NCBI GenBank assembly: GCA_030634675.1 | Contig: DAOWAH010000016.1 | Coordinates: 1-15,349, forward strand | Length of the DNA stretch: 15,349 bases | Direction: 5' to 3' | Source of the DNA: Fidelibacterota bacterium | GTDB taxonomy: Bacteria; Marinisomatota; Marinisomatia; Marinisomatales; TCS56 | Shown here: piece after piece, positions 1 to 15,049 of the stretch | How the letters are laid out: each line of letters starts with the position of its first letter | Position numbering within the stretch: the stretch's first letter is position 1 | Translations under genes and position numbers: made by a program | Notes under the pieces: model-generated | The model's database searches: none | Told to the model about the DNA's origin: nothing | The model's input: only the letters and a program-made list of their open reading frames with translations

Positions 1-874
1 CGTGAGGTTCCTCAAGAGCACGGTCAATGGCACCGATTGAGTCTTTCGCGGCGAGTAGGTGAATTCCTTTGGCGTGTCGCGCTATGGCACTGTTGGTAAT
101 TATACACCGATCAAAGGCTAAAAGGACATACTCTACCGAAGATGTATCGGTAATCAACAAATCAGCTACCGCCATATATTTAATAATATTTAAGTCGTCA
201 CAAATAATAAAATGAGTACTACGTAATTTTTCATACTGTTGCTGCACGACCTTATTCATGAGGGGGTGGAATTTTATCAGCCATTGGAAGCGATTCTTTA
301 ATCCCCTGATTGTCTGGAATAAGTCCGGTGCAGAGGTGTATTTGGGTGGAAATGTCGGGGCATAGAGAATAACAGGTTGGTTGGGCTCTAAACCATATTC
401 TCTTTTTAATTTTCTTTTATCGGTATCTGAAATATTAACCAGCGGACCGATTGGGTCCAATTTGGGCCAACCTGTTTCCTCAACCATAAAATGACCGTAA
501 CGTTGCGCCAGTTTCTTAAACCGGGTTGTTATACCCGGACCGGGAGTACAGTATAGGTCAAAAAAACCGGTAATACGATAGAATCCTTTGGGTTCATCAT
601 CAATACCATGAAAAATTTGAACTTTTATTCCCGGCCAAAAATGCGGGACAATATTCCCGGGTAAAAGGATTGCATCCGGGTTGTATTTAATGACCTCTGC
701 TGAAGTAAATAATTGTGGTCCGGGCGGCTGATGCTGCTTGGCGGAACTTGCAGTATACCAGTATACCGAACCAGCATTGAGCGCCTTAACAGTGTCTTGG
801 ACAGGTTCAAGAATTGGAAAAGAGTAGGTCTTTGTTACAAAAAATAAATATTTCAGGGAGCGCTTTTTATTCAT
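1..874 (-). CDS. CDP-glycerol glycerophosphotransferase-like (TagB/TagF family), 3' end cut by window
   Basis: The frame is open for 291 residues from an ATG at 874 to the left edge, so the C-terminus is missing. The family (teichoic acid TagB/TagF/TarL type, GT-B fold) transfers a phospho-alcohol from a CDP- or CMP-activated donor to a hydroxyl. Visible motifs are QIFHGI (residues 86-91, matching the family HG element), TPGPGIT (110-116), TGWPKLD (134-140, the G-[YW]-P-x-x-D element), LYAPTF (170-175), KFHPLMN (201-207, with the conserved HP) and ITDTSSVEYV (231-240, the family S/T-D-x-S-S element near the nucleotide site). I see no membrane segment in the part present. It starts 37 bases after the reductase stop and has no clear Shine-Dalgarno site, so it is probably translated from the same transcript. 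In this operon the likely donor is a CMP-activated phosphonate rather than CDP-glycerol, which is inference. Family assignment is firm and the substrate is not. Confidence 0.82.
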   Translation of the reverse strand, partial: MNKKRSLKYLFFVTKTYSFPILEPVQDTVKALNAGSVYWYTASSAKQHQPPGPQLFTSAEVIKYNPDAILLPGNIVPHFWPGIKVQIFHGIDDEPKGFYRITGFFDLYCTPGPGITTRFKKLAQRYGHFMVEETGWPKLDPIGPLVNISDTDKRKLKREYGLEPNQPVILYAPTFPPKYTSAPDLFQTIRGLKNRFQWLIKFHPLMNKVVQQQYEKLRSTHFIICDDLNIIKYMAVADLLITDTSSVEYVLLAFDRCIITNSAIARHAKGIHLLAAKDSIGAIDRALEEPH

Positions 875-911
875 CAAATAAATAACTTATGTCAAACAAT
901 CGATTGGCTGT

Positions 912-2018
912 TTAAGAATACATTTCATGCAGTATCCCGGAAACATCATCTTTGGTCAGGTCGATAATATTATTATCCATGCGACCCTTGGTAAATGAGA
1001 GGTCCGTTAGTTCACTGATTTGTTTCAAGTTGATTCCCCAATCTCGCAGGTTGAATTGTACCAAACCACCGGGGATTGCAGCAATTAAATCTTTCAAAGC
1101 AGAATTGTTTTTTAAATTGAGATTGGTTCGGATTTGCCGAAGTTGATCTTCGATGGCATCTTGATTAATCGCAATCAAGGGCAGCAACGGCATAGAGGCT
1201 GCAATTCCATGGGGAATATTGAAAAGTGAGGTGAGTGGATAACTGATCGAATGGGCAGCAGCGGTTTTTGTGTTTGAAAAGGCTAATCCGGCAATATTTG
1301 AAGCCGTTAATAATTTCCTGCGGATTTGAATATCACCAAAATCTTGTTTTAAACCATCGATATTCTCCAAGAGTAGACAGATGGCCTGAATGGCATATTG
1401 AGTGGATTGAGGATTTGCGTTTTTATTCCAGATAGCTTCGAAGCCATGACTCAATGCATCTAATGTAGTAGATAGGGAAATATCATGCGGTAAGCTTAAC
1501 GTGAGGGAGCCGTCGAGAATTGCGATATCCGGATATAATTCCGGGTGCATGAGGGAATATTTCTTTTTATTCTGCCGGTTCCAGATCGTTGCCCACATAG
1601 TCACTTCACTTGATGTTCCGTGGGTCGTGGGTATGAAGATAGAAGGAATCCGGTGGGGGAAAGGTTCCTTGAAAGAAAGTAAATCCTTAAGACTGAATAG
1701 TCCTGTTCCCAGAGCCGCCATAACGGCTTTGGCCGTATCCATAACCGAGCCACCACCGATAGCAAGAATACTATCAAAAGACCGATTGCGTCCGAATTCA
1801 ATTGCCTGCTGGCAACTGTCGAAAGAAGGATTGTTTTCGACGGCAGTGAAAATGGTATCAGATTTAAAAATTTCATCTAATTTAAGGCGCTTGACATTTT
1901 CTATATAGGTGATAATAAGGGTATGGTCGAAACCGAATGTTTCCCGGGATTCATGCCAGGCATCAATCCAATTCAGGCTTTCAATCACTTTTACCGGATT
2001 AAAATATTCTGTCGTCAT
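912..2018 (-). CDS. Phosphonoacetaldehyde reductase-like iron-containing alcohol dehydrogenase
   Basis: This 368-residue group III (Fe-type) alcohol dehydrogenase is complete. The nucleotide-binding loop is GGGSVMDTAK (88-97), followed by the TTHGTSSEVT stretch (131-140). The four metal ligands are D187, H191 (in DALSHGFEA), H256 (AAAHSISY) and H270 (NIPHG). The predicted reaction is NAD(P)H reduction of phosphonoacetaldehyde to 2-hydroxyethylphosphonate, as done by PhpC, FomC and DhpG in phosphinothricin, fosfomycin and related pathways. The assignment rests on the resemblance of the SNTKTAAAHSISYPLT stretch to that subgroup and on the decarboxylase immediately upstream, whose product is this substrate. 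The ATG at 2018 lies 42 bases after the decarboxylase stop. An AAGG sits directly against the start codon, too close to be a good ribosome site. Another small aldehyde substrate is possible but less likely in this setting. Confidence 0.88.
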   Translation of the reverse strand: MTTEYFNPVKVIESLNWIDAWHESRETFGFDHTLIITYIENVKRLKLDEIFKSDTIFTAVENNPSFDSCQQAIEFGRNRSFDSILAIGGGSVMDTAKAVMAALGTGLFSLKDLLSFKEPFPHRIPSIFIPTTHGTSSEVTMWATIWNRQNKKKYSLMHPELYPDIAILDGSLTLSLPHDISLSTTLDALSHGFEAIWNKNANPQSTQYAIQAICLLLENIDGLKQDFGDIQIRRKLLTASNIAGLAFSNTKTAAAHSISYPLTSLFNIPHGIAASMPLLPLIAINQDAIEDQLRQIRTNLNLKNNSALKDLIAAIPGGLVQFNLRDWGINLKQISELTDLSFTKGRMDNNIIDLTKDDVSGILHEMYS

Positions 2019-2060
2019 CCTTAAATTAATGTGTTACTTATACCGTTAATTTCTAAGGCA

Positions 2061-3197
2061 TTATTTATTATTTGATAAATATTTCATAAAATCTTTTTTA
2101 TTATCCACGGGGGTTATTGTTGGCCGTCCCAGATCTTCGCGTGATCCCGGTTTTACCAATAAATCAAGAAAAGCTGGACCAGCAGCCTGAATGAATCGCT
2201 TGAGGTGAGTGATTAATTGATCTTTATTATTGCACGATAAAACCGTTTTATAACCGTTTGATCGAACCAAACCGGGAATATCTATATTTTCAGCGGCAGT
2301 TTTTTGTCCGCCGACAGATTCATGCACTCGGTTGTTAATCAATATATGATAAAAATTATTCGGTTGCAGTTTCCCAATGGTTGCCAGACTACCCATATGC
2401 ATTATTAGCGCTCCATCACCATCGATACAAAATATTTTGCGATTCGGTTGAGCGAGAGCAATTCCCAAAGCGATTGAAGAACAATGTCCCATAGATCCGA
2501 CCGTTAAAAAATCTTGATGATGGGATTCATTGCCGGCAGCGCGTATTTCAAAGATTTCCCGCGATGTTTTTCCGGTTGTTGAAACGATTACACTGCTATC
2601 CGGCAATTTATCCAGGATTATTTTCAGAGATTCTTCACGTGTAAGCAAGTTTTCTTCGGTGCTGGCAGCGGATTTACCGTATTTACTAAATGTTCCTTTT
2701 TTTACCAAAATAACAAATGGTTTTTTCCCATTTTTAGCTTGCGTGATCACCGAGTTTAATTTGGTTTCCAAATTCGCTTCAGTCTGGGAAATAGTTGTAT
2801 AAGGTAAATCCAAGGCAGTTACTAGTTTTTCCTGAATCAGCCCTTGTTTTGTATGTTGCGGTTCGTCATGAACGCCAGGTTCTCCACGCCATCCGATTAC
2901 AACCAACATCGGGATCGAATATACTTCCGGGTCGCAGAGTGATATTAACGGATTGACGGCATTCCCAAGACCGGAATTTTGCATGTATACCAGGGGTAAT
3001 TTTCCTGTCCCGAGATGATACCCAGCCGCCAGGGCAATCGCATTTCCTTCATTTGCGGTAATCACATGGTTTTGGGCAGGTACATTATCGTCAAGGCATA
3101 AACAGAATTCCTTCAAAAGCGAATCAGGGACACCTGTAAAAAAATCGATGCCGTTGTTAGTTAATAAGTTAAAAAAATCAATTGGCGCAATACTCAT
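2061..3197 (-). CDS. Phosphonopyruvate decarboxylase (TPP-dependent)
   Basis: The enzyme decarboxylates phosphonopyruvate to phosphonoacetaldehyde, the irreversible step that pulls the unfavourable PEP mutase reaction forward. It is 378 residues from the ATG at 3197, the usual length for single-chain Ppd, with both halves of the TPP fold present. Residue numbers here count from the TTG one codon upstream. The N-terminal half has GVPDSLL (23-29), NEGNAI with the cofactor-activating glutamate (E51), and GWRGEPGVHDEPQH (103-116), typical of the phosphonopyruvate/sulfopyruvate decarboxylase family. The C-terminal half has VGSMGH (234-239) and the TPP/Mg motif GDG (261-263) closed by NN (289-290). 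I chose ATG 3197 because GAGG lies 7 bases upstream; it overlaps the mutase stop by one base (TGATG), so the two are translationally coupled. A sulfopyruvate decarboxylase role is ruled out in practice by the PEP mutase next door. Confidence 0.93.
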   Translation of the reverse strand: MSIAPIDFFNLLTNNGIDFFTGVPDSLLKEFCLCLDDNVPAQNHVITANEGNAIALAAGYHLGTGKLPLVYMQNSGLGNAVNPLISLCDPEVYSIPMLVVIGWRGEPGVHDEPQHTKQGLIQEKLVTALDLPYTTISQTEANLETKLNSVITQAKNGKKPFVILVKKGTFSKYGKSAASTEENLLTREESLKIILDKLPDSSVIVSTTGKTSREIFEIRAAGNESHHQDFLTVGSMGHCSSIALGIALAQPNRKIFCIDGDGALIMHMGSLATIGKLQPNNFYHILINNRVHESVGGQKTAAENIDIPGLVRSNGYKTVLSCNNKDQLITHLKRFIQAAGPAFLDLLVKPGSREDLGRPTITPVDNKKDFMKYLSNNK

Positions 3198-4498
3198 CAA
3201 TAATCCTCAGGGATAAGCGTCAATATTTCCTTAATTGGCATACAATATTTCTCTGATGCTTCTTTGCAGCGGCCGGAATGGAGAATTGATTCCGCGGTTT
3301 TGACCATTGAAGGGTAAGCACTTCGGATCAAGTGATTTCCATAAATGACTATATTGACTCCCAGTTTAGCTAATTCCCGTTCAGTGAAATGGGAATAGGT
3401 GGATGGTACAACAACCAGGGGCAGGGCAGCTTCAAATGACCTGAATTTATTACAGAATTCAACGATCTCTTGACCATCCTTTTCCTTGCTGTGAATCATT
3501 ATACCATCGGCGCCGGCAGCAATATAAGCTTTGGCTCGCATGATAGCATTGTTCATGCCATTTTTCAGGATCAAACTCTCAATCCGGGCGATGATTAAAA
3601 AATCGGAAGTCACCAGTGCCCTTTTGCCAGTCGCAATTTTCTCGGAGAAATGTTGTATTGTGTCCTGCTCCTGGAGGACTGCTGTTCCAAATAATGAATT
3701 GCGTTTAGTACCGATTTTATCCTCAATAATGATCGCTGAGACCCCCATTCGCTCCAGGGTCCTGACCCTGAATTTGAAATGTTCTTGATCTCCGCCGGTA
3801 TCGCCATCGACGATAATCGGTTTGGTCGTGACCTCCAGGATTTCATCGATAGTTTGGAAACGGGTCGAAAAATCTACCACCTCGGTGTCTGGTTTCCCTT
3901 TAGTCGTTGATACCGTCAGGCTGCTCAACCAAATTGCGTCGAATTCCTTGACACCTTCATTATGAATAATTTTAGTCTTCTCAACAATAAGACCTGTTAT
4001 CCCGTTATGGGCTTCCAGGACACGCACAATCGGTTTTACATCGAGCAGGCGCCTAAATATTTTTTGGCGTTTACTGGGGGTTGTGCCCTTTTCTGTTACC
4101 GCTTTGATCAATTGTGTTGAAGAAATTCCAGCCGTATATGTTGGTTCGATTAATTCCCCACCCCATTCTTTCAGAGCAGCAATAACTTTTCGGCGTGTTT
4201 CTCTCTGTATTCCGGTTTTCCAATCATCCCCATGCACAACATAATCGGGTTTGATCTTACGAAGATTGGGAACATAATCTAATGATTCCTGGGGGACGAC
4301 TTCATCCACGCTTCTGATATTTTCCACAATCGTTTTACGCTGATTATACGGCATTAAAGGAAGTCGTTTATAACTGGCAATTGCTGCATCGGTTAGTACA
4401 CCAACAATCACGTAGCCTAATTTCTTGGCTTCATTGATAATATTTAAATGTCCAAAATGAAATAAATCAGCTGACATCCCCACATAAACTTTTTTCAC
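3197..4498 (-). CDS. Fused cytidylyltransferase-phosphoenolpyruvate mutase
   Basis: This 433-residue protein has two domains. Residues 1-135 are a glycerol-3-phosphate/ethanolamine-phosphate-type cytidylyltransferase, with HFGH (14-17, the HxGH nucleotide site), KRLP (44-47), SVDEVV (63-68) and GISSTQLIK (124-132, the ISTT-type motif). Residues 150-410 are a PEP mutase barrel, with WLSSL (190-194), DGDTG (231-235, Mg site), the diagnostic EDK-x5-NS signature (259-268), ARIES (304-308), ADGIMIHSK (330-338) and VVVPSTYS (362-369). The EDK-x5-NS motif separates true mutases from isocitrate-lyase relatives. The mutase converts PEP to phosphonopyruvate, creating the C-P bond. The transferase domain should make a CMP-phosphonate from CTP, so the first and last soluble steps of the pathway sit on one chain. 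Such fusions are known among phosphonate producers. The start is GTG at 4498 with GGAG (4506-4509) 7 bases upstream. It is the first gene of the operon. The transferase substrate (HEP is likeliest) is inferred. Confidence 0.95.
3205..3208 (-). promoter_or_regulatory. Ribosome binding site of the phosphonopyruvate decarboxylase
   Basis: GAGG on the minus strand lies 7 bases before the ATG at 3197 and inside the last codons of the upstream mutase gene. It favours ATG 3197 over the TTG at 3200, which would be only 4 bases away, and shows that the two reading frames are coupled. Confidence 0.6.
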
Positions 4499-4902
4499 TT
4501 TACTACTCCGTTATTTGCACATAATCTGGAACTGAAATTATTTTTCCTTTCCAGGTTACAATGGATTATTGTTAGGTGTTTTTTTGTCAGATATCGTGGT
4601 AAAAATTTACACCGTAATCGTAACACTTTTATAGCATCTTCCATCATTATTCTGAGATTCTGTAACATAGAGAAAGTTCTTGACGAAGAGATAAAATTTC
4701 TCTTAATGTTTACCTGGCACAGCGATTTCAAGGTTTGGATTCCATGATAAGTGCAGATTCTCTTTTTTGCCCGTGTTATCCAGCAAAATACTATTCTCCA
4801 ACCAGTATCAAATGCCTTTCTTCTTATGTGGTTCTTTGGTATATCGAAAATATTCTTTTTTCAGTCGTCATTGAATTATAAGAATGGTTTATAATCTATG
4901 CG
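4499..4902. other. AT-rich intergenic region, probable leader of the phosphonate operon
   Basis: These 404 bases separate the exporter stop from the mutase start and hold no convincing gene. The only sizeable frame on the minus strand needs a TTG start and has a low-complexity, family-less product. I see a 12-base perfect palindrome (GTAAA-AA-TTTAC) at 4599-4610, about 100 bases upstream of the mutase start, which could be an operator. There is also an all-AT hairpin at 4875-4895, with stems ATTATAA and TTATAAT and a 7-base loop, just after the exporter stop. It has no following T run on the transcribed strand, so it is a poor terminator. I could not identify a convincing -35/-10 pair. Confidence 0.4.
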
Positions 4903-6738
4903 CTAGGATCCAAATTGTGCCGAATACAATTGTTTGTATAATCCATCTTTTTTAATTAGCTCGTCGTGGACACCGGATTCTGTAATTTTACCTCGATCAA
5001 CGACAATTATTTTATCGGCATTTTGAACGGTCGATAAACGGTGTGCTATCACCAGAACTGTACGATCTTTCATCAACATTTCAATAGCTTTTTGCACCTT
5101 ATGCTCTGATTCGGTATCCAGTGATGAAGTCGCTTCATCCAATATTAATATTGGTGGATTTTTCAATACCGCCCTGGCGATGGCTAATCTTTGTTGTTGA
5201 CCACCGGATAGTTTTACGCCTTTTTCACCAACGATTGTATTGAATCCATCCGATTGTCTTTCGATAAACTCCAGGGCATTGGCGATAGTCGCCGCCTCTC
5301 GTATCTTAGCTATTGGTATATCCGGTAAACCATAGGCAATATTGGCTTCAATGGTATCATTGAACAGAAAAGTTTCCTGGGTTACAATCCCCATCAGATT
5401 GCGTAAAGATTTTAGAGATAGGTTCCTTAGATCGCGACCATCTAAAGTAATTGATCCAGCAGTAACGTCATAAAAACGCGGAATGAGATCGGCGATTGTA
5501 GATTTCCCAGCACCACTAGGTCCTACCAGTGCCAGCACTTGACCTTTTTTAATTGTGAAACTGATATCTTCCAGTACTCGATCATCATCTTCTTGGTAGC
5601 GGAAAAAAACATTATGAAATTTGATGTCTGACTTAAAATCTGTCTTCTCAATTGCTTGCTTGACCTCACTGATAATAGGCTCTGTATCAAGCACCTTAAA
5701 TACCCGCTCGGCCGAGGCGATTCCGACTTGAAGATCAATATTCACATTGGTTAAAGTTTTTATAGGTGTAAGTAAAGAGAACATCAAAATCACAAATCGA
5801 ATGAAATCCTCAGCTGTAATACCCTGCTGGTTAAATACTTCCAGACCACCAAACCAAAGGATTGTTACACCAATAATAACACCTAAAGTTTCGGTAATTG
5901 GTGTCGACAGGTGACGCAGGCGAGCGCGGCGCAACAATAGATTGAAAAATTTATTGGTTTCGCGCTTAAAGCGCCTTACCTCATATTTCTCCATGGCAAA
6001 GGCTTTGACAATTCGTATGGAAGAAAAGGTTTCGTAAATAATATTCATTATCCCGGCGATTTTAACCGCTGTTCGACGCGATTTGCGGCGAATACTGCGG
6101 CCGACCAGAAAAATAGTAGTGCCGGCCAGGGGGATGACTAATAACGCAATCAAAGACAGTTTCCAGCTTATGACAAACAATAAACATAGTAAAAATAATA
6201 TATTTATTGGCTCAACTATCAATTTTTGAAAACCTGTTCCAAAAGCCCTGCGCATATAAGAAACATCGTTAATAATGATTGAGGCCAGGACACCGGAGCG
6301 CCGTTGGTTGAAATACGACAACGACATAGAATGGTAATGTTCATAAAGCTGCTCACGTAATTGTGTGATCAGCTTGTATTGAATGAACGAAATCAGAATA
6401 TTCTTGATGTACAGGAATATATTTTTAAGAACAAATACAATAAAGATCGTGAGACATAAAACTTTTAATGTTTCGATTGGTGTCTTACGGATGATTAGCT
6501 GATTGGTCCAGATTTTTAGGTGATCATTAGTGCTTAAATTAGTTGCAGTTAATAAATCATTATTTTGTTTGACCAGATCATTGAAATCCGATAAAATGTT
6601 ATTTACCAGCGACGCGGTTAACCATAATGATGCGCCATTTAGCGTCACATAAATAAATGCCGCTAACATTGATATTGACAGATAGGGCCAATATTGAAAT
6701 ACAAAACTCGCCAGTCGCGTGTAGATAGATTTAGTCAT
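4903..6738 (-). CDS. MsbA-like ABC exporter (fused membrane and ATPase domains)
   Basis: This 611-residue half-transporter works as a homodimer in the inner membrane. Residues 1-340 are the type IV exporter membrane domain. Hydrophobic segments run at about 15-45, 90-120, 175-215 and 280-325, and there is an unusually long polar stretch (about 46-90) between the first two. Residues 370-611 are the ATPase: Walker A GPSGAGKST (406-414), Q-loop Q454, signature LSGGQ (510-514), Walker B LILDE (531-535) and H-loop H566 (AHRLST). The family flips lipid A, other lipid-linked glycans, drugs or peptides, and sequence alone does not choose between them. The resemblance to MsbA and the nearby phosphonate operon on the same strand make export of an envelope lipid or glycan plausible, but the 404-base gap means it need not share a transcript. 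The ATG at 6738 has no visible Shine-Dalgarno site. Confidence 0.9.
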   Translation of the reverse strand: MTKSIYTRLASFVFQYWPYLSISMLAAFIYVTLNGASLWLTASLVNNILSDFNDLVKQNNDLLTATNLSTNDHLKIWTNQLIIRKTPIETLKVLCLTIFIVFVLKNIFLYIKNILISFIQYKLITQLREQLYEHYHSMSLSYFNQRRSGVLASIIINDVSYMRRAFGTGFQKLIVEPINILFLLCLLFVISWKLSLIALLVIPLAGTTIFLVGRSIRRKSRRTAVKIAGIMNIIYETFSSIRIVKAFAMEKYEVRRFKRETNKFFNLLLRRARLRHLSTPITETLGVIIGVTILWFGGLEVFNQQGITAEDFIRFVILMFSLLTPIKTLTNVNIDLQVGIASAERVFKVLDTEPIISEVKQAIEKTDFKSDIKFHNVFFRYQEDDDRVLEDISFTIKKGQVLALVGPSGAGKSTIADLIPRFYDVTAGSITLDGRDLRNLSLKSLRNLMGIVTQETFLFNDTIEANIAYGLPDIPIAKIREAATIANALEFIERQSDGFNTIVGEKGVKLSGGQQQRLAIARAVLKNPPILILDEATSSLDTESEHKVQKAIEMLMKDRTVLVIAHRLSTVQNADKIIVVDRGKITESGVHDELIKKDGLYKQLYSAQFGS

Positions 6739-6863: not shown

Positions 6864-7883
6864 ATGAATAATTTTATGAGGGATTGTATCACATTTTGCA
6901 TTTCAATCCTGGTTATTTCGATTCTATCCGCCCAGCCAGAGTTCCAGTTCTCATTACAATCCTGGGGTTCCTACACCAGTTATGATTACCCTGATGATTC
7001 AACCACCACCCAGTCGGGTTTTGGTATTCGGCGAGCCCGTTTGCGTGGTAAAATGGTACGGGAAAATACAGCAGCATTTATTCAGTACGAAGTGGTTAGT
7101 TCGACGGTTTTAGATGTCAGTTTAGACTATAAGCTGAGTGATAATTTGATGGTTAGAATGGGCCGGTTTGTCGGACCAGGTTCTCAGGCTGGTAGTCGCA
7201 CGGGTCATACTTCCATCGATTTAATTGAGCGTTCTATTGTTGGACGCAATTGGGGTACTGCCATCGGACGGTCTGACAGCCGCACTATCGGTCTGGCCTT
7301 AATTGGGAAACAGAATAACTTCGGTTATGAGATCATGGTTAGTAATGGCAGTAATAGTGTCAATTTGAAACCCTATAACTCAAAATCTTCCGAATCAAGA
7401 ACTGATACCGGACTACTACCACAGATTGATGTAATGGGTCATGTAAAATTCATGAATACCATCAAAACCGGAATTCATTATGGTCTGGCAAATAAAGATC
7501 GCGTAAATAAATCATCATTAACGGGCTTTGTGTATTTTAAGCCTCATGAATACAATGCTGGTAATATGCGTTTTAAGTTTGATTTTGCTAAGGTAGATGA
7601 TCTTGAAGGCGATATTGCATTGATGGGTTATAGTGCCTTGGGTGTCTATAAAGCTTCCCGGCATATCGAAATTGGGAGTCGCATCGAAACCTGGGATAAG
7701 AACATGGATGCGGGTGATGGAGCAGTTACAAATTTTACGATTGGTATCAATTACTCTATGGATCCAGATAATTGGGTTGATACAATGTTTAAGATCGATT
7801 TTACCTTTAAAGGAGCCGAGGGAAATAATAAAATTCCCGATCCGGTCATGATGCATATTTTATGGCAGATGTATCTGCATTAA
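6864..7883 (+). CDS. Outer-membrane porin, OprO/OprP-like
   Basis: This 339-residue secreted beta-barrel protein has a signal peptide at about 1-23 (hydrophobic core ITFCISILVISIL, cleavage after SA before Q24). GFGIRRARLRGK (52-63) is characteristic of the phosphate-selective porin O/P family. The rest shows alternating polar/hydrophobic short strands ending with a hydrophobic stretch, consistent with a barrel, although it is shorter than the roughly 400 residues of typical OprP. A diffusion channel for anions in the outer membrane is the likely role. The name does not prove phosphate selectivity, because this family is broad in FCB bacteria. The start is supported by AGGAG 5 bases upstream. 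It is followed 96 bases later by an anion symporter on the same strand, so the two may together bring a small anion across both membranes. Confidence 0.72.
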   Translation: MNNFMRDCITFCISILVISILSAQPEFQFSLQSWGSYTSYDYPDDSTTTQSGFGIRRARLRGKMVRENTAAFIQYEVVSSTVLDVSLDYKLSDNLMVRMGRFVGPGSQAGSRTGHTSIDLIERSIVGRNWGTAIGRSDSRTIGLALIGKQNNFGYEIMVSNGSNSVNLKPYNSKSSESRTDTGLLPQIDVMGHVKFMNTIKTGIHYGLANKDRVNKSSLTGFVYFKPHEYNAGNMRFKFDFAKVDDLEGDIALMGYSALGVYKASRHIEIGSRIETWDKNMDAGDGAVTNFTIGINYSMDPDNWVDTMFKIDFTFKGAEGNNKIPDPVMMHILWQMYLH

Positions 7884-7979
7884 ACTGAGACATCAATAAG
7901 AAAATCAACTGTCAAGAATCGGGTTATCGGAGAATTCAATATCAAGATAAATCTTAACCGAGAGCGCAATCTGAAACAG

Positions 7980-9470
7980 ATGGTAGGGCTGATTGCCGGA
8001 CCCGCTATTGCACTGATTATGCTACTGTTTCTAGATCTGGATCCTCAGAATCCCCTGGTAACTAGGACTGCAGCAGTTGCTGCCTTGATGGCAATCTGGT
8101 GGATTACGGAGGCAATCCCGATTCCAGCTACCGCTTTGCTGCCGGTAGCACTATTCCCGTTGCTGGGAATTATGACAGGGAAAACGGTAGCGGCTACCTA
8201 CTTCAACCACGTCATTTTTCTTTTTATTGGTGGTTTTATTATGGCGCTGGCCATGCAAAAGTGGAATCTGCATCGACGGATAGCACTAAGAATAATTCTT
8301 ATAATAGGGGCCAGTCCCAGGCGCATCCTGCTGGGATTCATGTTGGCCACCGCCTTTCTGTCAATGTGGATTTCCAATACGGCGACAACAATGATGATGG
8401 TACCAATCGCACTGGCGGTTATTATCAAATTGAGAGAATCATCTGGCAACAAAATGTCGCGTTTCTCGGCGGGACTTCTGATCGGGATCGCCTATGCTGC
8501 TTCGATTGGCGGGATCGCCACATTGATCGGCACACCACCCAATCTGTCATTCACGAGGATATTCTCGATATACTTCCCCAATGCTCCTGAAATTACTTTC
8601 GCCAACTGGTTTATGTTCGGACTGCCCTGCAGCATTATTTTTCTTTTTATTTCATGGATTATTATGACATCGATTTTTATGCCCAGGCAGCAAATTAATA
8701 CAATCAACATTGACTTATTCAGGAAAGAATACCGGCACTTAGGCCGAATCACTTATGAAGAGAAAGTGGTGCTGCTGTTGTTTGTTAGCCTGGCCTTCTT
8801 GTGGCTTTTCAGAAGCGACATTAATATTGGTCGATTTATAATTCCCGGTTGGTCAACGATTCTTCCGGTGCCGGCCTATGTAGATGATGGTACTGTTGCT
8901 GTTGTGATGGCTCTGTTGTTATTTATGATACCTGCGAAATCGAAAGAAAACGGCCGACTCATGGATTGGGATACAGCGGTAAAATTACATTGGGGAATTG
9001 TATTGCTCTTTGGTGGCGGCTTTGCTCTCGCCAGCGGATTTAAAGAATCGGGGCTTTCCGTCTGGGTGGCCGAACAGTTAACTGGGCTGGCTGATGTAAC
9101 CCCGGTTGTGCTAGTAGCGTCAGTGTGTACCATGCTGACATTTCTCACTGAATTGACATCCAATACTGCCACCACCGAAATGATCCTGCCATTGTTGGGA
9201 TCACTGGCTGTAGCGATTAAAGTCAATCCGTTGTTACTGATGATTCCTGCCACACTCTCGGCTTCGTGTGCCTTCATGTTGCCGGTAGCCACCCCGCCCA
9301 ATGCCATTGTATTTGGCAGTGGCGAAGTGAAAATGGGTGATATGATACAGGTAGGATTCGCGATGAACCTGGTTGGAATCGTTCTTATTACAATATTTAT
9401 CTATGTGTTGGGAATTACCGTTTTTAATATTGATTTAGGCCAACTGCCTGATTGGGCCGTGAATATGTAA
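7980..9470 (+). CDS. DASS/SLC13-family anion:sodium symporter
   Basis: This 496-residue inner-membrane protein of the divalent-anion:Na+ symporter family has about 11 hydrophobic segments. WWITEAIPIPATALLP (40-55) is a family hallmark. The two substrate/sodium-binding SNT motifs are at 132-134 and 394-396, each followed by ATT, with the paired loops GTPPN (184-188) and ATPPN (437-441). Family substrates are C4 dicarboxylates, citrate, sulfate or related anions; the exact one cannot be read from the sequence. The start is uncertain. ATG 7980 has no usable ribosome site (GAGAG is 15 bases away), and the frame is open upstream as far as the porin stop. A GGAG at 7929-7932 sits 8 bases before an ATC codon at 7941, which would add 13 residues. 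It lies directly downstream of the porin on the same strand and probably on the same transcript. Confidence 0.9.
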   Translation: MVGLIAGPAIALIMLLFLDLDPQNPLVTRTAAVAALMAIWWITEAIPIPATALLPVALFPLLGIMTGKTVAATYFNHVIFLFIGGFIMALAMQKWNLHRRIALRIILIIGASPRRILLGFMLATAFLSMWISNTATTMMMVPIALAVIIKLRESSGNKMSRFSAGLLIGIAYAASIGGIATLIGTPPNLSFTRIFSIYFPNAPEITFANWFMFGLPCSIIFLFISWIIMTSIFMPRQQINTINIDLFRKEYRHLGRITYEEKVVLLLFVSLAFLWLFRSDINIGRFIIPGWSTILPVPAYVDDGTVAVVMALLLFMIPAKSKENGRLMDWDTAVKLHWGIVLLFGGGFALASGFKESGLSVWVAEQLTGLADVTPVVLVASVCTMLTFLTELTSNTATTEMILPLLGSLAVAIKVNPLLLMIPATLSASCAFMLPVATPPNAIVFGSGEVKMGDMIQVGFAMNLVGIVLITIFIYVLGITVFNIDLGQLPDWAVNM

Positions 9471-12116: not shown

Positions 12117-13250
12117 ATGATTAAAGCAGGGATTTATATCCATTTCCCTTTCTGCCGGGCCAAATGCATTTATTGTGATTTTTATTCGGTTGCCCAGCAA
12201 GAGCAGTTGATCCCCCGCTTTATCGAGGCTCTGCTCAACGAAATTAAACACTGGCCGCCTGATATTTCTGATTGGCAATTCGATACGATCTTCTTTGGTG
12301 GCGGCACCCCCAGCTTGCTCACCCCCCAACAACTGGAACGAATTTTATTGGCTCTAGGCGAGCGATTCGATCTGTCGGCTATGCGGGAATTGACGATCGA
12401 AGCCAACCCGGAAACCGTGGATCAGGATAAACTACGTGCTTGGCGCAAGTTGGGTATCAACCGTCTGTCGCTGGGGATCCAATCATTTAATGATGATAAT
12501 CTGCGTTTTCTCGGTCGGACTCACTCTGCAGCCTATGGCCGTGCCGCGATTATCTCTGCTCAGAGCGCTGGTTTCGAAAACATCAGTTGCGATCTGATCT
12601 ACGGCCTACCCGGCCAGGATTGGGAAAAATGGTGCTGTGACCTGCAAATTGCCTTGGAGTTCGAACCAGCGCATCTGTCTTGTTACGCGCTTACTGTGGA
12701 GAAGGGCACCCATCTGCACGATCTGGTGGAATCAGAGAGCGTTTTATTACCGTCCGATGAGGAGGGAGCAGAATTATTCCGGCGGACCGGTGAATTTCTA
12801 ACCGGAAACGGTTATCCCCGTTATGAAATTTCCAATTTTGCCCGTCCGGGAAAAGAATGCCGACATAACCAGCATTACTGGTGGATTGAACCATATCTCG
12901 GATTTGGTCCCTCAGCCCATGGGTTCGATGGTAGACGGCGCTGGTGGAATTGTTCGGATTTGAATCAATATCTGGAACGGATCGAATCCGATCAATCCGT
13001 AATTCAAGCTACCGAAGTATTAACTGTCCATGAGCATACCAATGAACGAATTGGTTTCGGTTTGCGGATGTCTGAAGGCTTTACGTTGGCTGATATTCCC
13101 GAACAATTCCGACTATCAGTCCTAAACCAACTAAACCGCTGCCTGGGAAAATGGTCCGGTCAGTTGATTCGGGAAGGTGAACGAGTGCGTTTGACGGAAG
13201 CCGGGATGGTTTTTGCCGATTCAATTACAGTCGACCTACTACTGTTTTAA
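12117..13250 (+). CDS. hemW: Radical SAM haem chaperone HemW
   Basis: The protein has 377 residues from ATG 12117. The radical SAM cluster motif is C13-x3-C17-x2-C20 followed by DF. This is the HemW form, not HemN, which has a further cysteine. The SAM-binding FFGGGTPSLL lies at 59-68 and EANPETV at 95-101. The HemW region continues with EISNFARPG (237-245), RHNQHYW (249-255) and GFGPSAHGF (262-270), followed by the HemN_C domain to the end. HemW is a haem-binding chaperone that delivers haem to haemoproteins; it was formerly annotated as oxygen-independent coproporphyrinogen III oxidase. The frame extends 76 residues further upstream, but that part runs through the phosphatase gene on the other strand and has no family similarity. 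I therefore start at the methionine just before KAGIYIHFPF, the usual N-terminus. Its Shine-Dalgarno site is poor. Confidence 0.93.
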   Translation: MIKAGIYIHFPFCRAKCIYCDFYSVAQQEQLIPRFIEALLNEIKHWPPDISDWQFDTIFFGGGTPSLLTPQQLERILLALGERFDLSAMRELTIEANPETVDQDKLRAWRKLGINRLSLGIQSFNDDNLRFLGRTHSAAYGRAAIISAQSAGFENISCDLIYGLPGQDWEKWCCDLQIALEFEPAHLSCYALTVEKGTHLHDLVESESVLLPSDEEGAELFRRTGEFLTGNGYPRYEISNFARPGKECRHNQHYWWIEPYLGFGPSAHGFDGRRRWWNCSDLNQYLERIESDQSVIQATEVLTVHEHTNERIGFGLRMSEGFTLADIPEQFRLSVLNQLNRCLGKWSGQLIREGERVRLTEAGMVFADSITVDLLLF

Positions 13251-13369
13251 AACCGAATTTTATTTATTCCTTGCTGTTCAATTATATAACTTATCTATAA
13301 GAATTATGCTAATATTCATTCCAAGTAGTTGAAATGGTACTTTAACGCTATGAGCCTTGTCGTCCGAAA

Positions 13370-15049
13370 ATGAAAAGATTGAGTTTACTGGGCTTGATCT
13401 GCGGTGCTATTCTGCTAGGGAATATAAACCTGAATCAGGATCGTTTATTGCCGGGACTACGATCCGGTGATTTGTACAAGACCTGGGTCTATTTTACGGA
13501 TAAGGGTCAATCAGTTGACTCAGCTCAGGAAGAGGCGAAATTAACTGCCCGATCCGTACAGCGGCGCCAGAAAACATTGCACCATCGATTCATCGGATAC
13601 CGCGACCGGCCCGTTTCAGCAGATTATCTGCGCGCTGTTCGTTTGACTGGTGCCCGGATTCAGGTAAAGAGCCGCTGGTTCAATGCCGTATCAGTCTTGG
13701 CCAGTTGGGATCAGCTCGGCCTGATAAGCAGATTGGAATGTGTAGAACGCATCGAACCGGTAATGCAGGCTAAGCGCAAACCGCCGGATCAATTTGAAAT
13801 AGTGCCGGATATGTCCCAAACCAGGCGATTTACCGGATTGGATTACGGTGCAGCTTGGGTGCAAATCGAGCAAATCAACGCGCAGGTTGCCCATGATAAT
13901 GGCTATGCTGGGCAAGGAGTTCTGATCTTGATGCTGGATACCGGTTTTAACCGGGTTCATAGTGTGTTTGACTCTCTTAAGGTGGTGGCCGAGCGTGATT
14001 TTATCAATAATGATAGTAATACAGGTGCCGATTCGACCGATTCCTTGGTCGCCGAATATTATCATGGAACCGAATGTCTCTCAATAATTGGTGGCTATGC
14101 CCCCGGAGAATATATCGGCCCGGCTTACAAAGCCAGTTACCTGTTGGCTAAAACTGAAAAGACCTATAGTGAAAGCCCGATTGAGGAAGATCTGTTTGTG
14201 GCTGGATTGGAGTGGGGTGATTCACTGGGAATGGATATTGCTTCCAGTTCATTGGGTTATAATGATTGGTATGAATATTCCGATATGGATGGTAATACGG
14301 CAATGGTTACGCGCGCTATTGATTATGCTGTCTCAGTAGGGGTGGTATGTGTTACTTCAGCGGGTAACGAAGCCAATGTTGCATGGCGTTATATTATCGC
14401 ACCAGCCGATGCCGATTCAGTGATTTCGGTCGGAGCGGTTAACAGCAATGGATTTATAGCCTCATTCAGCTCCCGGGGACCTACATTTGATGGACGTCTT
14501 AAACCAGAGGTCTGTGCCTTGGGACTGGGAACAGCCATGGCTAATCCCGGGGGTGCCGGATATTTCAATTCGAATGGTACATCCTTTTCAGCGCCGCTGG
14601 TAAGTGGGGCAGCCGCGATTATCTTAAGTGCGCATCCGGATTGGACGCCGATGATGGTGCGGGAAGCTTTAATGATGACCGCTAGCCAAGCAGATGCCCC
14701 GGATACGATCTATGGGTATGGAATCATCAATACCTGGGGGGCTTTGAATTATCTAGGCTTTGGACCTGCCAATGGTGATTTACCGGAATCGATAGCTTTA
14801 GGTCCCGCTTTCCCCAATCCCTTTAATTTGGTTACCAGGATGATGATAGCCACCCGACATTACGGTGAAGTCAAGCTGGATATATTCAATCTGTATGGGC
14901 AATTCATCGAAACTGCTTTCCAGGGTGATGCCTATCCCGGTAAGCGCTTTGTCACCTGGCAGCCCGGTAATCAGCCTTCAGGAGTTTATTTTGCACGGCT
15001 AAAACAGGGCGATCAAACGGCAACCCGGAAATTAATTTTAATTAAATAA
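13370..15049 (+). CDS. Secreted S8 subtilisin-like protease with C-terminal sorting domain
   Basis: This 559-residue protease has a signal peptide at about 1-18 (LSLLGLICGAILLG). A propeptide-like region (about 35-135) contains a dibasic-rich stretch, RSVQRRQK. The S8 domain has catalytic D190 (LMLDTGF), H232 (YYHGTECLS), oxyanion N333 (TSAGNE) and nucleophile S405 (NGTSFSAP), so all four are present and it should be active. Residues 475-559 form a C-terminal sorting domain starting with AFPNPFN (480-486) and ending SGVYFARLKQGD...TRKLILIK. This is typical of type IX secretion cargo or related surface-attached proteins in FCB bacteria. It likely degrades protein outside the cell or on its surface. 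The propeptide and the HGTECLS form resemble subtilases of FCB candidate phyla more than classical HGTHVAG enzymes. The ATG at 13370 has no Shine-Dalgarno site. The 119-base upstream gap is AT-rich and probably holds its promoter. Confidence 0.9.
   Translation: MKRLSLLGLICGAILLGNINLNQDRLLPGLRSGDLYKTWVYFTDKGQSVDSAQEEAKLTARSVQRRQKTLHHRFIGYRDRPVSADYLRAVRLTGARIQVKSRWFNAVSVLASWDQLGLISRLECVERIEPVMQAKRKPPDQFEIVPDMSQTRRFTGLDYGAAWVQIEQINAQVAHDNGYAGQGVLILMLDTGFNRVHSVFDSLKVVAERDFINNDSNTGADSTDSLVAEYYHGTECLSIIGGYAPGEYIGPAYKASYLLAKTEKTYSESPIEEDLFVAGLEWGDSLGMDIASSSLGYNDWYEYSDMDGNTAMVTRAIDYAVSVGVVCVTSAGNEANVAWRYIIAPADADSVISVGAVNSNGFIASFSSRGPTFDGRLKPEVCALGLGTAMANPGGAGYFNSNGTSFSAPLVSGAAAIILSAHPDWTPMMVREALMMTASQADAPDTIYGYGIINTWGALNYLGFGPANGDLPESIALGPAFPNPFNLVTRMMIATRHYGEVKLDIFNLYGQFIETAFQGDAYPGKRFVTWQPGNQPSGVYFARLKQGDQTATRKLILIK

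Follow-up and report, generated by a model that had tools for sequence, protein, structure and literature searches.

A predicted CMP-hydroxyethylphosphonate operon with TagF-like transferases behind an msbA-like gene of a Fidelibacterota bacterium

The window, which is the whole 15,349-nucleotide stretch analysed here (positions 1 to 15,349 of contig DAOWAH010000016.1, assembly GCA_030634675.1), comes from a Fidelibacterota bacterium, a marine member of an uncultured phylum, and carries a phosphonate operon at its left edge. The genes encode a cytidylyltransferase fused to a phosphoenolpyruvate (PEP) mutase (Ppm), phosphonopyruvate decarboxylase (Ppd), an Fe-alcohol dehydrogenase (Fe-ADH) and a PF04464 family transferase (transferase 1) (Table 1). 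A tight minus-strand operon of these four genes had been proposed in a first-pass annotation made from the sequence letters, and Pfam, NCBIfam and the coordinates confirm all four. The fusion and Ppd genes overlap by 4 bases and the gaps that follow are 42 and 37 bases. Loci and genomes used for comparison are designated L and G, respectively. The gene order fusion-Ppd-Fe-ADH-transferase 1 is kept in 14 of the 80 loci from the scan with the transferase alignment; a fifteenth locus, L011, starts within Ppd, and the reading frame of the L005 fusion is open only from a point inside its first domain. The nearest named relatives of the window proteins and loci are Marinimicrobia/Neomarinimicrobiota. 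Compared with L001 and L002, the ratio of nonsynonymous to synonymous substitution rates (dN/dS) is 0.09-0.18 for Ppd, Fe-ADH and transferase 1 (first 240 columns); the fusion gene gave no value because its synonymous sites are saturated.

Table 1 Genes and gene remnants of the operon and its upstream neighbourhood in the window.
Feature	Positions	Strand	Basis or remark
Cytidylyltransferase (PF01467)-PEP mutase (PF13714) fusion	3197..4498	minus	Pfam, TIGR02320, motifs, identity to 5x3d
Ppd (phosphonopyruvate to phosphonoacetaldehyde)	2061..3200	minus	TIGR03297
Fe-ADH, predicted phosphonoacetaldehyde reductase (forming 2-hydroxyethylphosphonate)	912..2018	minus	PF00465; TIGR03405 best model
PF04464 transferase 1, candidate transferase for the CMP-activated phosphonate	2..877	minus	likely start ATG 874-872; cut by window edge
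LicD-family relic, stop-broken short collinear fragments	4515..4876	minus	tblastn with intact LicD of relatives
MsbA-like ABC exporter, predicted lipid A-core flippase, upstream of operon	4903..6738	minus	TIGR02203 best NCBIfam model; L002 ortholog

The fusion protein scores 65.4 bits with PF01467 and 193.9 bits with PF13714. It exceeds the cut-off of the PEP mutase model TIGR02320 (381.6 versus 319.55 bits) and has the EDKxxxxxNS motif at residue 259 and an HxGH motif (HFGH) at residue 14. Ppd is likewise above the cut-off of TIGR03297 (480.2 versus 312.5 bits). The Fe-ADH is above the cut-off of PF00465, with 112 bits; its best NCBIfam model is that of PsrA, TIGR03405, though the score of 245.9 bits falls below the cut-off of 423.7. 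The best PDB match of the cytidylyltransferase domain, at 63% identity (E 7.4e-53), is 5x3d, which we take to be the cytidylyltransferase domain of Fom1. The domain scores 183.1 bits with 5x3d as against 47.4 bits with the glycerol-phosphate cytidylyltransferase 1coz, and the score of the fusion with TIGR01518 is 57.8 bits, where the cut-off is 165.4. A glycerol-3-phosphate-type enzyme, which according to the first-pass annotation would have overturned its proposal, is therefore not indicated. As in Fom1-type proteins, PF01467 is N-terminal to Ppm and the HxGH and ISST motifs and Fom1-shared residues are present; Fom1 is described as making the cytidine monophosphate (CMP) derivative of 2-hydroxyethylphosphonate (HEP), CMP-HEP (PMC6697681). 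Based on protein families and residues, it is very probable that the operon directs CMP-HEP synthesis.

The neighbours of the fusion agree with the proposed route from PEP through HEP to CMP-HEP, and with HEP rather than 2-aminoethylphosphonate (AEP) as the head group. Among 25 Neomarinimicrobiota loci, window included, Fe-ADH lies beside the fusion in 22 and an AEP-type (class V) aminotransferase in none; the three loci that lack Fe-ADH are two contig ends (L081 and L088) and one truncated copy (L089). This count leaves out L091, which has no Ppm half; there (1120-2292) the cytidylyltransferase domain is in frame with an AI-2E transporter domain, either a chimera or a misassembly. DegT-type sugar aminotransferases occur near the fusion in L085 and L086, and a loose genome-wide search gave aminotransferase matches of 26-28% in five of the 14 genomes in which the fusion and transferase 1 are linked (hereafter linked genomes), none of them on the contig of the operon. 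The pattern is reversed in the three loci whose Ppm fusion is of the PF12804 type: a class V aminotransferase is present and Fe-ADH is absent. In L087 (9388-10716) a sulfatase-fold gene is found between the fusion and Fe-ADH of a HEP cluster; sulfatase-fold enzymes include phosphoethanolamine transferases.

The residues of the cytidylyltransferase domain also separate the two kinds of loci, with 23 columns distinguishing 23 Fe-ADH-linked domains from four aminotransferase-linked ones, the latter a small set of close sequences (L005, with its broken first domain, was left out). At these columns 5x3d agrees with the Fe-ADH-type majority in 13, with the aminotransferase type in two and with neither in eight. 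The two Fe-ADH-type domains from Bacteroidota group with the window set, which argues that the split does not reflect taxonomy alone. The Bacteroidota sample (395 genomes; the phylum of L075, Winogradskyella) has the fusion in six genomes, two with Fe-ADH and four with an aminotransferase, and the PF01467-Ppm fusion by itself was accordingly rejected as proof of HEP. In all four Bacteroidota AEP-type loci (L126-L129, at about 4.5-7.1 kb) a protein of about 800 residues adjoins the aminotransferase; it has no Pfam match in L126. In the phylum of L063 the fusion was looked for in 40 genomes and found in none, a result counted as uninformative.

The candidate for the transfer step is transferase 1, the window fragment of which scores 56.6 bits with PF04464 (gathering cut-off 22.1), together with a second PF04464 protein (transferase 2). 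The gene for the latter follows that of transferase 1 in 13 of the 14 linked loci, the contig of L018 ending before it, and is cut in L001 and L014; the linked genomes encode transferase 2 proteins 62-91% identical to that of L002. Two histidines are invariant in the PF04464 proteins (51/51 and 31/31), one aligned to TagF His584 and the other assigned through the HG motif, which is present in both transferases. Structures were predicted for P0003, an ortholog of the window transferase 1 fragment, and for L002 transferase 2, and the best structural match for both was TagF. The score above the cut-off, the two catalytic histidines and the TagF fold, the last of these from P0003, place transferase 1 in PF04464. 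Both transferases are short, at about 350-370 residues, which is the size of priming enzymes and not of TagF. Transferase 1 of L008 is below the cut-offs of the TarB, TarF and TarL models (NF041711-NF041713; 35.6 of 500, 27.3 of 550 and 29.8 of 1000 bits, respectively), and the NCBIfam scan matched no model to the window transferase 1 fragment or to L002 transferase 2. The PF04464 family, the TagF alignment and the predicted TagF-like fold are consistent with the earlier suggestion of a TagB/TagF-type user, and the PF04464 proteins probably use CMP-HEP. The window fragment lacks a glutamate that is invariant in 51 relatives, and its end (2-180) departs from the relatives at several conserved sites (DTSSVEYV in place of DTSSVAYE) with the reading frame intact, which represents either a contig-end artefact or decay.

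In the transferase tree, a single subclade of 18 rows holds transferase 1 of the Ppm loci (14 rows are labelled Ppm, the others being L011 and three without Ppm); this is a quick tree with long-branch warnings, in which the Ppm labels need 12 changes over both clades. PF04464 proteins of other subfamilies are found in the HEP clusters L083, L084 and, in Bacteroidota, L124 (only 29.4 bits), of which L083 also has polysaccharide synthesis, Wzz-like and export genes; PF04464 was not found by profile in six other HEP loci. Two stricter propositions were rejected. Transferase 1 is not a phosphonate-only enzyme, as 37 of the 51 phylum genomes encode it without a linked Ppm. Transferase 2 is not a strict Ppm marker, as relatives of 46-64% identity are present in G006, G070, G041, G128 and G130, draft genomes in which no Ppm was found, and a 54% relative in G191 is accompanied by only a cytidylyltransferase piece.

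Among 245 genomes of the phylum, transferase 1 was found in 51, the fusion in 23 and both in 16, and the two are linked within 8 kb in 14 (co-occurrence, Fisher 1.2e-7, not corrected for kinship). In 22 of the 51 genomes transferase 1 has a different nucleotidyltransferase as its linked partner, but this is so in none of the 14 with linked Ppm (Fisher 7e-5, also uncorrected for kinship); in 15 of the 51 transferase 1 is linked to neither. The linkage count used thresholds of about E 1e-40 for nucleotidyltransferase rows and E 1e-140 for Ppm rows, weaker rows being dropped, so that G191, G212, G161, G005 and the three PF12804-type genomes are not scored as having Ppm; were the weak rows admitted, G028 would enter the linked nucleotidyltransferase set and the zero of 14 would be unchanged. 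The alternative enzyme is profile-related to sugar-1-phosphate and inositol-1-phosphate nucleotidyltransferases, below every cut-off shown, and the myo-inositol-1-phosphate synthase family is also encoded in L013, L019, L024 and L025. In seven of eight inspected loci from Gammaproteobacteria and Calditrichaceae the neighbour of the transferase is TagD-like, the Calditrichaceae one being above the TIGR01518 cut-off and the six others below it. From these swapped neighbours, the modules around transferase 1 seem to serve different head groups activated with cytidine diphosphate (CDP). In L019 (12138-14381; G005:C10) the alternative nucleotidyltransferase stands beside a C-terminal Ppm stump and Fe-ADH, without Ppd, perhaps a donor module caught mid-replacement. 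L027 (6472-9922) has Fe-ADH and a half-length LicD-like gene, with no Ppm, beside nucleotidyltransferase and sulfotransferase genes.

The LicD relic between the msbA-like gene and the fusion scored 38.9 bits in tblastn, compared with at most 25.8 bits in 500 dinucleotide shuffles. An intact LicD occupies this slot in seven loci (L007-L010, L012, L014 and L015). Nine of the 14 linked genomes encode a LicD at least 45% identical to that of L008. Across all 245 genomes there are 13 with such a LicD; ten of these carry the complete fusion, and an eleventh, G161, has one truncated at a contig end. In L002 (G001) the LicD of the slot is reduced to 72 codons, and a distant LicD (32%) lies upstream of msbA. 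None was recognised in the slot of L005 and L028, and the genome of L003 has only a 31% LicD on the other strand. With its relic broken by stops, LicD was rejected as a required partner at the window locus, which leaves PF04464 as the likely user of CMP-HEP in cis.

After transferase 2 the flank in relatives contains genes for malic enzyme, DUF1015, citrate synthase, peptidases and hydrogenase, MreB/MreC/PBP/RodA, biotin ligase and a family, F24, without any match. Three flank families had no match in Pfam, NCBIfam or PDB sequences, among them F20 and F24, each shared by several loci (in L028, F20 at 4982-6121 before the fusion and F24 at 12306-13403 after transferase 2). It was in this left flank that the first-pass annotation had envisaged genes for a phosphonate antibiotic or a methylphosphonate synthase as contrary evidence. 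Among the window genes and the L002 and L028 flank genes that were scanned, none was recognised as a methylphosphonate synthase, a Fom3-like methylase or an epoxidase; beyond the second PF04464 gene the relatives have mostly housekeeping genes, apart from the three unmatched families.

The MsbA-like exporter upstream of the operon scores 530.9 bits with TIGR02203, below the cut-off of 602, yet this is its best NCBIfam model, and it shares 94% identity with the ortholog that L002 has at the corresponding position. LpxC is above the cut-off in all 14 linked genomes. At a threshold of E 1e-80, 12 of the 14 have a single MsbA match (G084 has two, one of them a piece, and G042 has none), and in ten the match is on the contig of the fusion within 10 kb. 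L084 has a gene for a lipid A acyltransferase near its msbA. Because the operon is near a single msbA in genomes that bear LpxC, lipid A-core is the favoured acceptor, a tentative assignment that may well prove wrong.

The explanation that we prefer, with a probability of about 0.53, is a phosphonate surface-tailoring operon in which HEP is moved from CMP-HEP by PF04464 proteins onto a surface glycolipid. PEP mutase would convert PEP to phosphonopyruvate, Ppd would yield phosphonoacetaldehyde, Fe-ADH would reduce this to HEP, and the Fom1-like domain, judging from its family and residues, would combine HEP with cytidine triphosphate to give CMP-HEP. One or both transferases may then transfer HEP to a hydroxyl of the glycolipid, likeliest lipid A-core from the place of the operon behind msbA, by the mechanism of TagF, and the product would be a phosphonate monoester with a free hydroxyl. 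One or a few HEP units would be added and not a long polymer, a point held with moderate confidence. The transferases would belong to a donor-swapping cassette, other forms of which use other CDP-activated head groups. In two AEP-type loci, L094 and L098, the clade 2 transferases are separated from Ppm by 6 and 12 kb (and in L094 are encoded on the opposite strand), a looser link than in the HEP loci, which takes a little from this explanation and adds a little to the polymer reading considered below. A more ambitious and rather improbable version would see in PF04464 the missing transferases of CMP-phosphonate pathways, within a swappable cassette behind msbA in Neomarinimicrobiota that puts HEP or inositol phosphate or another head group on lipid A-core, and in which an intact LicD may extend HEP to a short carbon-phosphorus (C-P) oligomer.

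An unlikely alternative, which nevertheless has some force, makes LicD the HEP transferase, with the PF04464 pair building the acceptor from another CDP-alcohol and the task of LicD in the window performed elsewhere or lost. It gains from the occurrence of LicD mostly with the fusion and from the sharing of transferase 1 with non-phosphonate variants, and the distant LicD of G001 makes a LicD elsewhere conceivable; but the window copy of LicD is broken and that of L002 retains only 72 residues, whereas dN/dS is low for Ppd, Fe-ADH and the body of the transferase, and the slots of L005 and L028 and the genome of L003 offer no close substitute. That the PF04464 proteins polymerise HEP into poly(hydroxyethylphosphonate), a C-P analogue of teichoic acid, had been a speculation of the first-pass annotation and is very unlikely. 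HEP does keep a hydroxyl, the tandem PF04464 proteins with their HG motifs recall TagB and TagF, and for Actinobacillus capsules a PF04464 protein and a LicD protein are reported to function in the oligo-glycerol-phosphate linker (PMC11666461). The short length of both proteins and the NCBIfam results, including that for TarL, speak against a polymerase. So do the clade 2 transferases on the contigs of L094 and L098, where the genes predict CMP-AEP and AEP would have no hydroxyl for a next unit, an argument of moderate weight given the distance from Ppm noted above; transferase 1, moreover, is absent from both genomes and could have a different role. Of the earlier proposal, then, the CMP-HEP route and the TagB/TagF-type transferase as likely user are supported and the polymer is not; LicD, the msbA context and the other donor modules of transferase 1 had no place in it.

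Two further rivals concern CMP-HEP itself. It could be consumed, as an intermediate, by a pathway encoded elsewhere that leads to a small molecule or to methylphosphonate, the nearness of PF04464 being incidental to msbA. Fom1 itself serves fosfomycin synthesis (PMC6697681), the HEP module of G038 and G201 is on a different contig from transferase 1, and the three unmatched flank families could conceal a pathway gene, but no enzyme of that kind was recognised among the flank genes scanned in L002 and L028, the gene order is kept in 14 loci and PF04464 is also found in L083, L084 and L124, so that we regard this as highly unlikely. It is also conceivable, though improbable in the extreme, that glycerol-3-phosphate or phosphoethanolamine is the substrate of the cytidylyltransferase and that the products of the transferase are ordinary phosphate esters. 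PF04464 relatives elsewhere do pair with TagD-like enzymes and the fusion gives some signal with TIGR01518, but that score is far under the cut-off, and the identity to 5x3d and the fusion to PEP mutase point the other way.

Beyond the msbA-like gene, the window has a weak porin-like gene (PF07396 just under the cut-off) followed by a DASS anion symporter (6864-9470); a 46% relative of the porin-like protein adjoins the HEP module in L090. A subtilisin-like protease with a T9SS type A sorting domain is encoded at 13370-15049.

The steps after Ppm in phosphonyl tailoring were called enigmatic by Rice et al. (PMC6697681). By pairing a Fom1-type maker of CMP-HEP with two TagF-fold transferases, the operon supplies named candidates for the phosphonate transfer step, for which the natural swaps of donor modules around transferase 1 are built-in controls, and it proposes a bound form in which Neomarinimicrobiota may make HEP. 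In the open-access literature that was searched no paper combining phosphonate, pepM and glycerophosphotransferase was found, nor, by title or abstract, any on a PF04464 phosphonate transferase; the terms CMP-HEP and CMP-AEP were found only in Rice 2019, CMP-2-aminoethylphosphonate also in seven other papers. The terms glycerophospho-, CDP-glycerol and TagF do not occur in the portion of PMC6697681 that was searched.

One of the systems closest to the window operon is that of Fom1, with the same domain order, 63% identity of the first domain to 5x3d (presumably Fom1), Fom1-like residues and neighbouring Ppd and Fe-ADH. It differs in that no methylase or epoxidase was recognised nearby, the next genes being PF04464 in an envelope-synthesis setting. 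The Pnt pathways described by Rice et al. 2019 (PMC6697681) share a CMP-activated phosphonate for surface tailoring and a nucleotidyltransferase-Ppm fusion, but the two PntC enzymes characterised there are of the PF12804 type and use AEP, whereas the window fusion has PF01467 and a predicted preference for HEP. The transferases resemble TagB, TagF and TarL and the Gram-negative CpsA/TagF-like capsule enzymes, as presented in PMC5974469 and PMC11666461, in the best structural match (TagF), the histidines, the short TagB/CpsA-like size and the occurrence in a double-membrane bacterium; unlike these, the predicted donor is a CMP-phosphonate, and the TarB, TarF and TarL models score far below their cut-offs. 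The phosphonate clusters of Prochlorococcus SB and SAR11 are similar in that PEP mutase clusters are tied to surface glycan genes; as described in PMC8931226, these are PglC, Wzx and O-oligosaccharyltransferase genes, whereas in the window they are msbA and PF04464.

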